From an uncultured Clostridia bacterium (GTDB lineage Bacteria > Bacillota > Clostridia > Christensenellales > Aristaeellaceae), in the NCBI GenBank assembly GCA_946414315.1, contig CAMKNZ010000001.1, positions 62,001 through 126,000 on the forward strand: a DNA stretch of 64,000 nt, read 5' to 3'. The position numbers were made by a program, and so were the translations under genes. Below, piece after piece: positions 8,116 to 35,013 of the stretch (the stretch's first letter is position 1; every line of letters begins with the position of its first letter). The notes below the pieces were generated by a model. It was not told the DNA's origin. It was given only the letters and a program-made list of their open reading frames with translations, and ran no database searches.

Positions 8116-9105
8116 TCACCATGCTTCACCGAAGCCTCCGTATGGAATATCGTGGACCAGGCAGTGTACAGCGTTCCCGATGTCCTCCTCTTCCGGTTCT
8201 TCGCCTTCCCGGACGCAGCATTCAAACTCATCGGTCACATACTCGATGATCGTCATGTCGATAAACAGCGGAAGCTTCTCCAGCATTTTTCCCGATACAT
8301 CCGTTTCGCTCCGGTATCCTTCCAGAACTGTCCCGAAATAGTGCTCCATGCAGGCCATGCGTTTCTTCGGATCCGGTTCATGCTGATACCAGCCCACGCC
8401 GTGGGTCCAGAGATGGGCCAGGTCGAACATATACCAGCAGTATATACAGTTGTCGAAATCAAACACTGTGATATCGCCGGTTTCCAGATCCACATGATAA
8501 TTGCCGTCGCAGAAATCAAAATGGACAAGTCCGTAATCCTCTGCGCCCTTCGGAAGCGTCCTGTATTCCTCCAGCCGCCGGCAGATTGCCCGTTTCAGTT
8601 CCCCGTATGAATCCGGAATCAGCCGGTTTATATATTCCGGAGTATATCGGTCCTGAAATGTCCCGCGGCAATGAACCGGTTTGTACTGTTTCGAAAGCCT
8701 GTGAATCACACCAAGCGCCTTGCCGGTGTTGTAGAAGTATTCCTCCAGCGGGGCGCCTTCCCGGTAGCGGTATCCGTTGTCGCTCAGCAGCATCCCTTTG
8801 GCATATTCAAACAGGCTCACAAATACCGTTGTCCCGTCCTGTTCATAGCTTTCGACCAGGTTTCCGTGAACAGAAGGCACCACATCCGCCACGGGCGCCC
8901 CGTTCCGCGCGAGGTATCGGATGAATTCCGTTTCCGCGAGATAATTTTCCCGTGTCCGGTCGCCCAGCGCCGAAATGCGGAGCACATACTTCTTTTCTCC
9001 GTGGAGGCTGCAGATATACACCCGGTTCCGTCCGCCTTCGTGGCCTGGCACCGGCCTGAGATCAAAACCCTCCAGCGCGTACAGCCCGATCGCTTTTTCT
9101 GTCAT
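8116..9105 (-). CDS. Aminoglycoside phosphotransferase-like (APH) family protein
   Basis: VHFDFCDGNYHVD...ITVFDFDNC kinase motifs; ATG overlaps rsgA stop (ATGA). Confidence 0.85.
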   Translation of the reverse strand: MTEKAIGLYALEGFDLRPVPGHEGGRNRVYICSLHGEKKYVLRISALGDRTRENYLAETEFIRYLARNGAPVADVVPSVHGNLVESYEQDGTTVFVSLFEYAKGMLLSDNGYRYREGAPLEEYFYNTGKALGVIHRLSKQYKPVHCRGTFQDRYTPEYINRLIPDSYGELKRAICRRLEEYRTLPKGAEDYGLVHFDFCDGNYHVDLETGDITVFDFDNCIYCWYMFDLAHLWTHGVGWYQHEPDPKKRMACMEHYFGTVLEGYRSETDVSGKMLEKLPLFIDMTIIEYVTDEFECCVREGEEPEEEDIGNAVHCLVHDIPYGGFGEAW

Positions 9106-10139
9106 TCTCTTCCTGTCCCCCTTCCGCACCGCTGGAGCGCTGTGTTCCTTTTGCGCCGTTCCATGGCGATGTTCATCATCTTTTCATTCTTCCGGACCTT
9201 GCTCCACTGGTTTTCCTTTTCCAGGTGGCTGAACATTTTCCATCTTTCGGCAGAGAGTGTTCCGTTCTCCAGCGCTTCCCTGACTGCGCAACCCGGTTCG
9301 CTGCGGTGTGTACAGTCTGAAAACGCGCACCGGCTGATCAGTTCCGCGATATCCGCAAAGGTACCGGCGATTCCCTCCTCCGCGTCAATCATACCCAGCT
9401 CCCGTAATCCGGGAGTATCGATGAAACTGACGCCGTCCAGCTCAATCAGTTCCCTGTGGGTAGTCGTGTGCCTGCCCTTCGAGTCTTCTTCCCGGATCCC
9501 GCCGGTCTGCATGATTTCCCGCCCTGCCAGCGTATTGATCAGCGTGGATTTTCCTGCGCCGGAAGATCCCAGCAGCGCAATCGTCGCGCCCGGCCTGAAG
9601 TACGTCCGCAGGCGGTCCAGCCCGTACCCCGTACGGGAGCTGATCGGCACAACCTGCAGGTTCTCGCTCAGGGATGCGGCCTCTGCTTCCAGCTCCTCCA
9701 CATTCGGACAGAGATCCGCCTTTGTCAGCACAGCAACAGGTACTGCGCCTCCGGAAACCGTCATAGCCGCATAGCGGGCAATCCGGCTGACGCTGAAATC
9801 CCGGTTCAGGGAAGTAATGATAAATACATAGTCGATATTGGCGATCAGCGGCTGAACCTGAAGGGTCTTGGCAAAACCATCCGCGTGACCTCCGCGGTCC
9901 GGCCGGCAGAACTGCGTCCTGCGCGGCCGGATCTCCTGGATCAGGCTGTCGCCGTAAGGGTTTTCCGTAACCTCCACATAGTCGCCGACAACGGGGAATT
10001 CGTCCCGGTAACGTCGTCTGCCGGCCAGTATACAGTAAAGTTCCTTTTCTTCATTCCGGACCAGGTACCGGTCCCTGTGGACCAGTACCACACGGTATAT
10101 TTCATTCAAATTCTTTGTTTCCTCCTCATTGTTCACCAT
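9102..10139 (-). CDS. rsgA: Ribosome small subunit-dependent GTPase A
   Basis: Circularly permuted GTPase: [23 protein letters not shown]-terminal Zn-binding CAFSDCTHRSEPGC. Confidence 0.9.
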   Translation of the reverse strand: MVNNEEETKNLNEIYRVVLVHRDRYLVRNEEKELYCILAGRRRYRDEFPVVGDYVEVTENPYGDSLIQEIRPRRTQFCRPDRGGHADGFAKTLQVQPLIANIDYVFIITSLNRDFSVSRIARYAAMTVSGGAVPVAVLTKADLCPNVEELEAEAASLSENLQVVPISSRTGYGLDRLRTYFRPGATIALLGSSGAGKSTLINTLAGREIMQTGGIREEDSKGRHTTTHRELIELDGVSFIDTPGLRELGMIDAEEGIAGTFADIAELISRCAFSDCTHRSEPGCAVREALENGTLSAERWKMFSHLEKENQWSKVRKNEKMMNIAMERRKRNTALQRCGRGTGRE

Positions 10140-10933
10140 ACCTGTTTGCGGTAGCGCCAGGTTGTCTTGCCGAAAGTGCCGGTATAAGCCAGTTCCTCCC
10201 AGCCGTCCGCCAGCAGCTGTTCATTCCGGCCGGTTTCACAATGCTGATCGCCGGGCACGTCCAGCAGCCAGCCGCCGGGCTTTGTAATCCGTGTCAGTTC
10301 ATCCACTTCCTCCCGGAAGAAGTCGCCGACCACATGTCCGCTCATCACCACATCAAAGCTGTTGTCCGGAAAAGGCAGGCAGTGACAGAGCCCGTCGCAG
10401 ACCCGCATGTTGCGGATCCCTTTCTGGGCGATTTCGTCCCGTATAAACTCCCGCAGGGAGTCTACCGGCTCGCTGGCCACCGTAAACGCGGCTTTCTCCG
10501 CGGCGGCAAACGCCAGTCTTCCTGTTCCGCTTCCCACGTCCAGGACGGTCTTTCCTTCCAGATCGCACAGTTCAAACAGCCGTTCCTTGTTCCAGCCGTA
10601 GATGAAATCACATTTTTCCGCCATGACTTCCGGCGTCGTATAGATCACAAAATCCTCAAACTCGTCGAGCGTCCGGATTTCCGCCGCCCGGATCTGCTCC
10701 GGCGTTAGGCTGTCCGGTGCCTGTGCTGTCAGCCCTTTCACCCGGCCTGCCATTTCCGGGCACTTGTGTTCAAAGAGCCACGCAACTTTCGGATTTGCCT
10801 TCAGCGCGGCTGCCATCGACGTCTCCGTTTCATCATAAAGATTCTCAAGCATCAGCCTGATCTGAAACCGTTCCAATCGAAGCATACAGTCAAAAGAATA
10901 GTTCTCTGTATTGATCCAACCGATGTTTCCCAT
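10133..10933 (-). CDS. Class I SAM-dependent methyltransferase
   Basis: VLDVGSGTGRLAFAA motif I; CAGGAGGAACTTT-ATG start. Confidence 0.85.
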   Translation of the reverse strand: MGNIGWINTENYSFDCMLRLERFQIRLMLENLYDETETSMAAALKANPKVAWLFEHKCPEMAGRVKGLTAQAPDSLTPEQIRAAEIRTLDEFEDFVIYTTPEVMAEKCDFIYGWNKERLFELCDLEGKTVLDVGSGTGRLAFAAAEKAAFTVASEPVDSLREFIRDEIAQKGIRNMRVCDGLCHCLPFPDNSFDVVMSGHVVGDFFREEVDELTRITKPGGWLLDVPGDQHCETGRNEQLLADGWEELAYTGTFGKTTWRYRKQVW

Positions 10934-10957: not shown

Positions 10958-10989
10958 AAAAAAACTGCTTATCCGTCACGGATAAGCAG
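10958..10989 (-). terminator. Intrinsic terminator of microgene A
   Basis: CTGCTTATCCG TGA CGGATAAGCAG + TTTTTTT on minus strand (11-bp perfect stem). Confidence 0.85.
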
Positions 10990-11016
10990 CCGGTCACACC
11001 GAATATATGCCGGGAT

Positions 11017-11118
11017 TTATTCCCGAATGCTCTTCGGATGATCGGACGCAAAGCCGGTACGGATGATTTTTGCAGCGTTCGCGGTCACTGCAGCCCGTTC
11101 ATTCATCACTGTCCGCAT
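11017..11118 (-). CDS. Predicted 33-aa microprotein A (MRTVMNERAAVTANAAKIIRTGFASDHPKSIRE)
   Basis: Own promoter, SD AAAGGGGG, ATG, stop, then terminator; C-terminal F-x3-HPKS shared with 34853-34945; below ORF-track length cutoff. Confidence 0.55.
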   Translation of the reverse strand: MRTVMNERAAVTANAAKIIRTGFASDHPKSIRE

Positions 11119-11152
11119 ACGAAGAGCCCCCTTTCTGAACAAGATCACGTTA

Positions 11153-11182
11153 TATATACTATGAAAGCCTTGCTGCTGTCAA
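11153..11182 (-). promoter_or_regulatory. Predicted sigma70-type promoter of microgene A
   Basis: Minus strand TTGACA-N18-TATATA. Confidence 0.65.
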
Positions 11183-33713: not shown

Positions 33714-34760
33714 TCATTTCAGGTGTATTTCCATATATCTCCGGTAGGTGCTGAACCCGACCGCTTCATAGAAGGCCAGAGCACCCCGGTTGAACGTCCA
33801 CATATTCAGTTCCAGCCGGCTGAAGCCCTGCTCCTTCGCCCAGTCCCGGATAAACCGGATCATTTCGCTGGCAGCGCCTTGCCGCCGGCTGTTTTCATCC
33901 ACGCCGAATTCGTCGATGTCCAGGAAGTCACGCTCGAACATAAAGGGGTTCTCCGGCCGGTTGATATGATTCAGCACCGCGAACCCGCAGACTTTCCCTT
34001 CAATCTCTGCCACCACGATCTGCTGGTTCGGATCCTTCCAGATGGTAAAGAGATGATCCCGCAGTTCGTCGCAGAAGCCGGGCTTGAATGTTTCGGACCG
34101 TCCGGCAACATGCAGGTCGTTCACCTGTCTGCGCAGCTCGTTGACCCGGGGCAGATCCTCTTCCCGGGCAAAGCGGACCGTAACCGGACCCTTTTCACGA
34201 GCCGGCTTCGGCGTCCGGTCGCTCCGCAGCAGGGCATAGCAGGCAGTATCGCAGATGCCCTGGTTGTTCTTCCCGCCGCCCCGGCGGACGCCTTCTTTCC
34301 TCAGTCCGGCCTTTTCCATGACCCGGCCGGAGTTGGGATTGTTCACGTCATGCCCGGCGCAGATCCGGTCGATGCCGGCAGTATCAAACAGATAATCCAC
34401 CACAGCGCGCAGGGCTTCCGGCATGATCCCCTGTCCCCACCAGGCCCGGCCCATGCAGTATCCGATCTCGGCTTCCCCGATGGCTTCCTCCAGCCGGACC
34501 ACCGCGATGTTGCCGATGACGCGGCCGGTTTCTTTTAATTCAATGGCCCACTGGAAAAAGCCGCCGTCATCGTAATAAGAGATCCAGGTGTTGAGTATCC
34601 TGCGGGTCACGTCGATGCTCGAATGGGCCGGCCAGGTCAGGAACTTTGTCACTTCCGGATCCGACGCCCAGTTATTGAACATATCCTCCGCGTCCTCGAT
34701 CCGGTATCGCCTGAGGATCAGTCTGTGGGTCTCGATACGCTGCGTTCCGGTCTTGTTCAT
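33714..34760 (-). CDS. GNAT protein with two acetyltransferase domains (RimJ-like plus GNAT)
   Basis: IETHRLILRRY...GRAWWGQGIMPEALRA and VDENSRRQGAASEMIRFIRDWAKEQG. Confidence 0.85.
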   Translation of the reverse strand: MNKTGTQRIETHRLILRRYRIEDAEDMFNNWASDPEVTKFLTWPAHSSIDVTRRILNTWISYYDDGGFFQWAIELKETGRVIGNIAVVRLEEAIGEAEIGYCMGRAWWGQGIMPEALRAVVDYLFDTAGIDRICAGHDVNNPNSGRVMEKAGLRKEGVRRGGGKNNQGICDTACYALLRSDRTPKPAREKGPVTVRFAREEDLPRVNELRRQVNDLHVAGRSETFKPGFCDELRDHLFTIWKDPNQQIVVAEIEGKVCGFAVLNHINRPENPFMFERDFLDIDEFGVDENSRRQGAASEMIRFIRDWAKEQGFSRLELNMWTFNRGALAFYEAVGFSTYRRYMEIHLK

Positions 34761-34784
34761 GGGGGTCACCATCCTTTTCTGAAA

Positions 34785-34824
34785 ATAAAAACGATCACTG
34801 ATCCGTCGAGCGGTCAGTGATCGT
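34785..34824 (-). terminator. Intrinsic terminator of microgene B
   Basis: ACGATCACTGACCG CTCGA CGGATCAGTGATCGT + TTTTATTTT on minus strand. Confidence 0.85.
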
Positions 34825-34852
34825 CTGATAACCTGGTTTATCCGGACGTTCT

Positions 34853-34945
34853 TCAGCTCTTCGGATGGCTGCACGTGAAACGATAACCGTAAGCATAACC
34901 GGCTTCGGCCATCATGTTCATGGAATGCATCATGTACAGCGCCAT
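34853..34945 (-). CDS. Predicted 30-aa microprotein B (MALYMMHSMNMMAEAGYAYGYRFTCSHPKS)
   Basis: Own promoter, SD AAAGGAG, ATG, stop, terminator; ends in F-x3-HPKS like 11017-11118. Confidence 0.6.
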   Translation of the reverse strand: MALYMMHSMNMMAEAGYAYGYRFTCSHPKS

Positions 34946-34977
34946 GGGAAGAGCTCCTTTCCGGAAAGATTGGTGTG

Positions 34978-35006
34978 AGTATACTCCGGAAAGGACGCTT
35001 CGTCAA
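34978..35006 (-). promoter_or_regulatory. Predicted sigma70-type promoter of microgene B
   Basis: Minus strand TTGACG-N17-TATACT. Confidence 0.75.
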
Positions 35007-35013
35007 GCAGGAT

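Follow-up and report, generated by a model that had tools for sequence, protein, structure and literature searches.

Two leader units in the window

The window, a stretch of 64,000 nucleotides from an uncultured Clostridia bacterium, carries two short units on its minus strand, referred to here as A and B. Unit A has a -35 box TTGACA (11177..11182) and a -10 box TATATA (11153..11158) separated by 18 nt, followed by a strong Shine-Dalgarno (SD) sequence, AAAGGGGG, and by an ATG at 11118 that opens a leader ORF of 33 codons (11017..11118; MRTVMNERAAVTANAAKIIRTGFASDHPKSIRE), for which coding constraint was found over 11 homologues. A strong hairpin with a run of seven T residues closes the unit (10991-10958), with the 5' arm GGCUGCUUAUCCG at 10979..10991 and the 3' arm with its U-tract at 10958..10975. 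Unit B repeats the layout with a -35 box TTGACG (35001..35006), a -10 box TATACT after 17 nt (34978..34983), a leader ORF of 30 codons (34853..34945; MALYMMHSMNMMAEAGYAYGYRFTCSHPKS) and a terminator hairpin with U-tract (34782..34826, hairpin 34790-34826). TTGAC boxes are found at the same position in most units, and TATAnT in most homologues.

Behind unit A lies a gene for a SAM-dependent methyltransferase of 266 aa (10133..10933, minus strand; Pfam Methyltransf_11/25), with its ATG 25 nt past the U-tract. The second gene of this operon, encoding an RsgA-like GTPase paralogue of 345 aa (9102..10139, minus strand), overlaps the methyltransferase stop. Behind unit B lies a gene for a two-domain GNAT acetyltransferase protein of 348 aa (33714..34760, minus strand). 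In both cases, the end of the terminator is 20-35 nt from the ATG of the same-strand gene.

An earlier note on this DNA had described the promoter, SD, 33-codon ORF and hairpin with T7 of unit A, all of which are present as described. It had also pointed to the second unit of like layout, and this one (34780-35007) was likewise found, is homologous to A and is non-random. The note overlooked that the sequence GCTCTTC, located in the gap between SD and ATG, is exactly complementary to GAAGAGC, the two "KS" codons at the end of the ORF, in A as well as in B. In the RNA, GCUCUUC (segment 1; 11121..11127 in A, 34948..34954 in B) is the 5' arm and GAAGAGC (segment 2; 11029..11035 and 34856..34862) is the 3' arm of a pairing named P1, and the span from one to the other is 99 nt in both units. 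The 196 nt of unit B fold with a z score of -5.4, and P1 is part of the minimum-free-energy structure.

No match was obtained in the window by an Rfam covariance-model scan at the gathering score, and in a permissive Rfam scan of the units the best match was an unrelated snoRNA (E = 0.2). The leader peptides had no family match among Pfam and NCBIfam profiles. A phage origin of unit B was considered and dropped, as no phage match was found.

A family of units in the genus

Across genomes of the same genus, GCTCTTC...GAAGAGC recurs at the right spacing. The pattern RARRGRRGCTCTTCNNATG was found at 43 sites in 26 of the 45 genomes of the genus, and the reversed control pattern at none. The sites read from these 43 were all units bar one, the SD of an ordinary 363-aa gene (L054 in G012), which was left out of the family. 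A covariance model built from 37 units then recovered about 95 full-length copies in 26 of the 45 genomes, with hits down to E = 3e-40. Matches per genome reach nine in G002 and G008 and eight in G001, G005, G022 and G035; a stray terminator match on the opposite strand may be among those counted. In the assembly of the window itself, which is 60% complete, four units are full-length, and the terminator of A also gives a match on the opposite strand. Sister genera of the same family hold a few more units, and none was found in the other families of the order that were scanned. Distant covariance hits below about 35 bits (L275, L276, L280, L281) resemble stray terminators and carry no weight in the evidence. 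A GTDB-wide pattern scan gave mostly chance SD matches outside the family, together with the new units L089 and L127 and a part-masked relative, L133. Relatives that carry a name are assemblies of uncultured Clostridia, and ruminant gut is the source of many. The proposal that A and B are members of a single uncharacterised family, and that homologues would be found in related genomes, is borne out by these pattern and model searches as well as by the lack of a Pfam, NCBIfam or Rfam match.

The analysis set comprises 93 distinct units with 43 leader-peptide clusters. All have an ORF of 24-39 codons followed, about 25 nt past the stop, by a terminator, which is present in 93/93 units and starts 7-36 nt after the leader stop (median 25, IQR 23-26); a promoter and an SD are seen in most. 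The units were sorted by the leader peptide into types such as A (MRTVMNERAAV..DHPKSRPE), B (..YSHPKS), C (MAKYAV..RPKSREK), D (MRNA..RLKSSGV) and E (MNRFGFVAVLPANTVEHVRTIVVSDCRKIREE). A small island in L078 (G002), and likewise in L197 (G005), consists of a type-C and a type-A-like unit that stand back to back with their genes, about 4 kb from each other. The peptides of L250, L251, L253 and L256 (MKYGYIALALLLANTLKLVRAILL...) are hydrophobic and resemble membrane or signal peptides, unlike the rest of the family.

The leader ORF and its peptide

Each of the 34 gaps that fall in the ORF within clusters has a length divisible by three, whereas gaps in the spacer from ORF to terminator mostly do not (22/31; in another count 12/21, with sizes of 1, 2 or 5 nt). 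The dN/dS ratio across homologues is below 1 in all eight clusters tested, with values of 0.35-0.66 in five and of 0, 0.81 and 0.87 in the others. By this comparison of sequences the leader ORF is under protein-coding constraint, and it looks to be translated.

The shared FxxxHPKS end had been taken as a peptide motif. It is indeed common to A and B, but as a motif it is mainly a shadow of P1: GAAGAGC is the P1 3' arm, and the pairing persists as the end of the peptide varies to REE, REA, TKN, LKG or PKD. Selection on HPKS as a peptide motif was consequently rejected as the main reason for its conservation.

A mid-ORF hairpin is frequent in the interval between the P1 arms (11029-11127 and 34856-34954 in the window) and in homologues, as UGCAGUG..CGCUGCA in unit A and as GCGAAC..GUCCGC in the ANxxxxVR types. 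It is conserved partly at wobble positions, and a pause hairpin is one possibility.

Three RNA pairings that co-evolve

Each unit can be divided into four segments, in which P1 is formed by 1:2, an antiterminator by 2:3 and the terminator by 3:4, with segment 2 at the end of the ORF. In unit A, the antiterminator 5' arm consists of GAAGAGC and the bases next downstream. On the alignment, 96% of the cells in P1 and the terminator are paired, compared with 35-54% in slid controls, and nine pairs are changed on both sides, eight in the terminator and one in P1.

A swap test, independent of the covariance model, was performed by pairing the segments of the 43 cluster representatives with those of others. 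Matched P1 arms gave -11.9 kcal/mol versus -9.6 for swapped ones, and matched antiterminator arms -15.6 versus -12.5 kcal/mol; in neither case was any of 20,000 permutations as good. When swaps were kept within supergroups of the same ORF-end type, the result was again 0/20,000 for P1 and for the antiterminator, and mid-ORF control segments gave no matched-versus-swapped signal. Since the units are related by descent, these permutation counts are not strict probabilities, for which the within-group swaps and mid-ORF controls help partly.

Compensatory changes are seen directly in related units. P1 is GGUUCUUCG/CGAAGAACC in L158 and GGCUCUUCG/CGAAGGGCC in its relative L078, and CUCUCCUC/GAGGAGAG in L250 versus CUCUUCC/GGAAGAG in its homologue L256; further pairs are GUUUUUC/GAAAGAC in L249 and GCGCUUCUCU/AGAGAAGCG in L188. 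All three segments differ together between type G (CUCUUCCC, GGGAAGAG, UAUCCCU) and type E (CUCUUCUC, GAGAAGAG, UAUCUCU), and in type C AGGGA goes with UAUCCC and AGAGA with UAUCUC. A reading of GCTCTTC as a SapI-like restriction site flanking a cassette was rejected because diverged units alter both arms jointly. The signal is not uniform: for types D, D2 and F, the antiterminator in the final 36 nt of the ORF does not stand above synonymous shuffles, and P1 is little formed or absent in about 8 of 43 clusters. As judged from pairing and covariation, P1, the antiterminator and the terminator all exist and co-evolve.

Genes behind the units

Unit A had been described as a stand-alone, complete monocistronic gene, a view that the gene layout contradicts: the distance from the terminator to the next same-strand gene has a median of 35 nt and is at most 70 nt in 75/89 units. 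This gap holds an SD and no promoter. With no space for a second promoter, the downstream gene would depend on read-through from the promoter of the unit, so that a unit amounts to a promoter, a leader ORF and an attenuator. The D-type leaders, with at least 145 nt to the next gene, count against this attenuator reading. In L071 (at about 2340-2700) and L068, a second short ORF with an SD (MRIITARRIWLLLRNNKAVRHFGTVIDRTQGE in L071) lies between the type-D terminator and a 104-aa gene, and the same interval has a conserved ACCCAAAAAA stretch; it may be a second leader in tandem.

The layout also bears on the idea of a microprotein gene or a dual-function sRNA acting in trans. A promoter, SD and terminator of its own, an ORF under purifying selection and a CU-rich segment adjoining the SD would all suit such an element. 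However, the units nearly always stand 20-50 nt before a same-strand gene, too close for that gene to have a promoter of its own, the peptides form 43 clusters with little common sequence, and the most conserved features are the RNA pairings and the promoter, so that a trans-acting role has little probability. Of the earlier suggestion of a microprotein or dual-function RNA family, the family, the coding constraint and the RNA structure stand, and the trans-acting microprotein probably does not; the peptide is best read, from the sequence comparisons, as a leader peptide.

Translation attenuation of the ermC type, in which a hairpin hides the downstream SD, would likewise place a leader ORF and alternative hairpins before resistance-like genes. 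In the units, however, the final hairpin carries a U-tract, and the downstream SD is not part of it but lies 3' of the U-tract, which leaves this explanation hardly any probability.

The association of a unit with its gene is tight for some families. A unit stands upstream of 13/13 type-A methyltransferase genes in the genus, the last of which, L158, has diverged arms. Sister-genus methyltransferase homologues with readable upstream DNA are without a unit. In one of the sister genera (L145), a type-A methyltransferase homologue is preceded, at about 140-260 nt upstream of its start, by a different short ORF, MKLNSMRYPSNPGRTPTA, and a GC-rich hairpin without a U-tract, possibly a leader of independent origin for this gene family. 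Where a type-E methyltransferase gene lacks an adjacent unit, another gene (often a GNAT) comes before it, and such a cluster is headed by a unit in several genomes. The leaders L073, L076 and L055 precede broken or rearranged methyltransferase genes. In each of six further genomes (G001, G002, G022, G035, G040 and G044), a housekeeping RsgA is accompanied by a second, longer RsgA-like GTPase, and in 6/6 a unit is found upstream of this separate paralogue, at a distance of no more than about 2 kb. A type-A methyltransferase was looked for in G001, G022, G035 and G044, and none was found.

Over the whole set, GNATs follow about 30 units and several methyltransferase families about 31. Other units precede RsgA paralogues, 2H phosphoesterases, a GNAT-nitroreductase fusion, a nucleoside phosphorylase, a HAD hydrolase, phosphodiesterases, alpha/beta hydrolases, and P-loop and small proteins without a Pfam match. 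The enzymes tested against NCBIfam had no close relative among proven resistance proteins, with matches far below the cut-off, and a PDB search with the "GSGAVGKM" protein returned nothing.

A proposed ribosome-controlled switch

Each leader was folded as far as the terminator loop, where RNA polymerase has to choose, with the ribosome represented as a mask. In the ribosome-free fold, types A, B, C and G usually show P1, which is about half formed in E and hardly at all in D and F. When the ribosome masks SD and AUG, antiterminator pairing rises from 0.45 to 0.80 in type E, from 0.28 to 0.82 in G and from 0.06 to 0.49 in B, and changes little in type A (0.28 to 0.34). With a ribosome at the stop codon, it falls from 0.83 to 0.08 in type C, to 0.03 in E and to 0.29 in F. 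In types C and F the folded antiterminator is hardly affected by P1. By this modelling, ribosome position may decide between the structures, and the shifts suggest that a free ribosome favours termination while arrest at or near the start favours read-through.

A mechanism can be proposed in which transcription starts at a sigma-70-type promoter and passes first through a short leader ORF and then through an intrinsic terminator close to the start of the enzyme gene. A freely translating ribosome would reach the stop codon and cover segment 2, so that 3:4 terminates transcription. Without a ribosome, P1 would in many types sequester segment 2, again favouring termination. Should the ribosome instead be held at the start codon or close to it, it would cover segment 1; segment 2, left free, would pair with 3, and this 2:3 pairing would let RNA polymerase read into the enzyme gene. 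The signal is likely translation arrest by ribosome-targeting compounds, given the downstream GNATs, methyltransferases, second RsgA-like GTPase, nitroreductase fusion and the like; from this gene content we infer that the inducer would be a ribosome-targeting compound or antibiotic.

A promoter, an SD and a short ORF are found upstream, an intrinsic terminator without a second promoter follows on the same strand, and an antiterminator that excludes the terminator is present, though weaker in types D, D2 and F. Each unit is most likely a ribosome-sensing transcription attenuator before an enzyme gene; on this reading, one ancestral switch was copied in front of more than a dozen gene families, which would make up a regulon that needs no regulator acting in trans.

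A variant that overlaps with this attenuator is a nascent-peptide arrest leader, in which compound-specific and sequence-specific stalling drives the switch. Such a mechanism is known for the ErmL, MsrDL and CatA86 leaders (for MsrD, see PMC10314930). The constraint on the peptides and the retention of motifs such as ANxxxxVR and a C-terminal R-x-E are what stalling peptides would be expected to display; yet the peptides diverge strongly as the RNA switch is retained, and conservation of the motifs is partly at wobble positions (GCGAAC), which suggests that the motif may reflect the RNA. Stalling specific to compound and peptide is a rather unlikely basis for the switch.

Comparison with known leaders

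The attenuator proposed here may be compared with several known systems. In the trp attenuator of E. coli (trpL), pairings 1:2, 2:3 and 3:4 are chosen by ribosome position (PMC4191407), and the same segments are present in the units. This common four-segment anatomy, and the richness of some peptides in Tyr, Met or His, could suggest a leader that senses one amino acid in the manner of trpL or hisL. The units, however, have no regulatory codon run common to the leaders, and their downstream genes are not for amino-acid biosynthesis; amino-acid sensing is thus very improbable. Segment 1 of the units is at the ribosome-binding site, that of trpL inside the ORF.

The bmrB leader of bmrCD in Bacillus subtilis responds to ribosome-targeting drugs such as lincomycin by read-through into the resistance operon (PMC4191407). 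It resembles the attenuator units in architecture, with a translated leader ORF and a proposed ribosome logic that the model for the units shares, but its terminator lies inside the leader coding region and it is found at one locus. In the units the terminator is about 25 nt after the stop, the anti-antiterminator arm is between SD and AUG, and multiple copies stand before many gene families. In the toiL uORF of topAI-yjhQ in E. coli, a hairpin spans the uORF and several classes of ribosome-targeting drugs are sensed, with tetracycline and retapamulin thought to stall at the uORF start codon (PMC12121999). Start-codon stalling fits the proposed switch, although toiL works by unmasking of a ribosome-binding site and Rho-dependent termination, and in the units an intrinsic terminator comes after the leader. 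The whiB7 and vmlR leaders exert uORF-controlled responses to translation inhibitors (PMC12121999, PMC9226507), as is proposed for the units; they differ as single-locus leaders, whereas each gene in the present family has its own copy of the switch. Furthermore, the one leader of whiB7 drives a trans-acting regulator of many genes, unlike the units. No description of a leader family of this kind came up in the literature that was searched.

Meaning of the family

Leader-peptide attenuators of resistance genes are usually described locus by locus; the present case is a set of at least 90 homologous units, which has a covariance model of its own and shows strong covariation. HPKS illustrates how an RNA stem can cast what looks like a peptide motif, a trap for microprotein annotation. 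It is conceivable, and put forward tentatively, that one ancestral attenuator spread by duplication before more than 12 enzyme families, up to nine times per genome, forming a regulator-free stress regulon in which diverging peptides tune the copies to different inhibitors. The family of units flags its whole gene set as probably induced by translation arrest, and may guide the discovery of new resistance or ribosome-protection enzymes in Clostridia of the ruminant gut, among them GNATs, methyltransferases, the second RsgA-like GTPase and families without a Pfam match.
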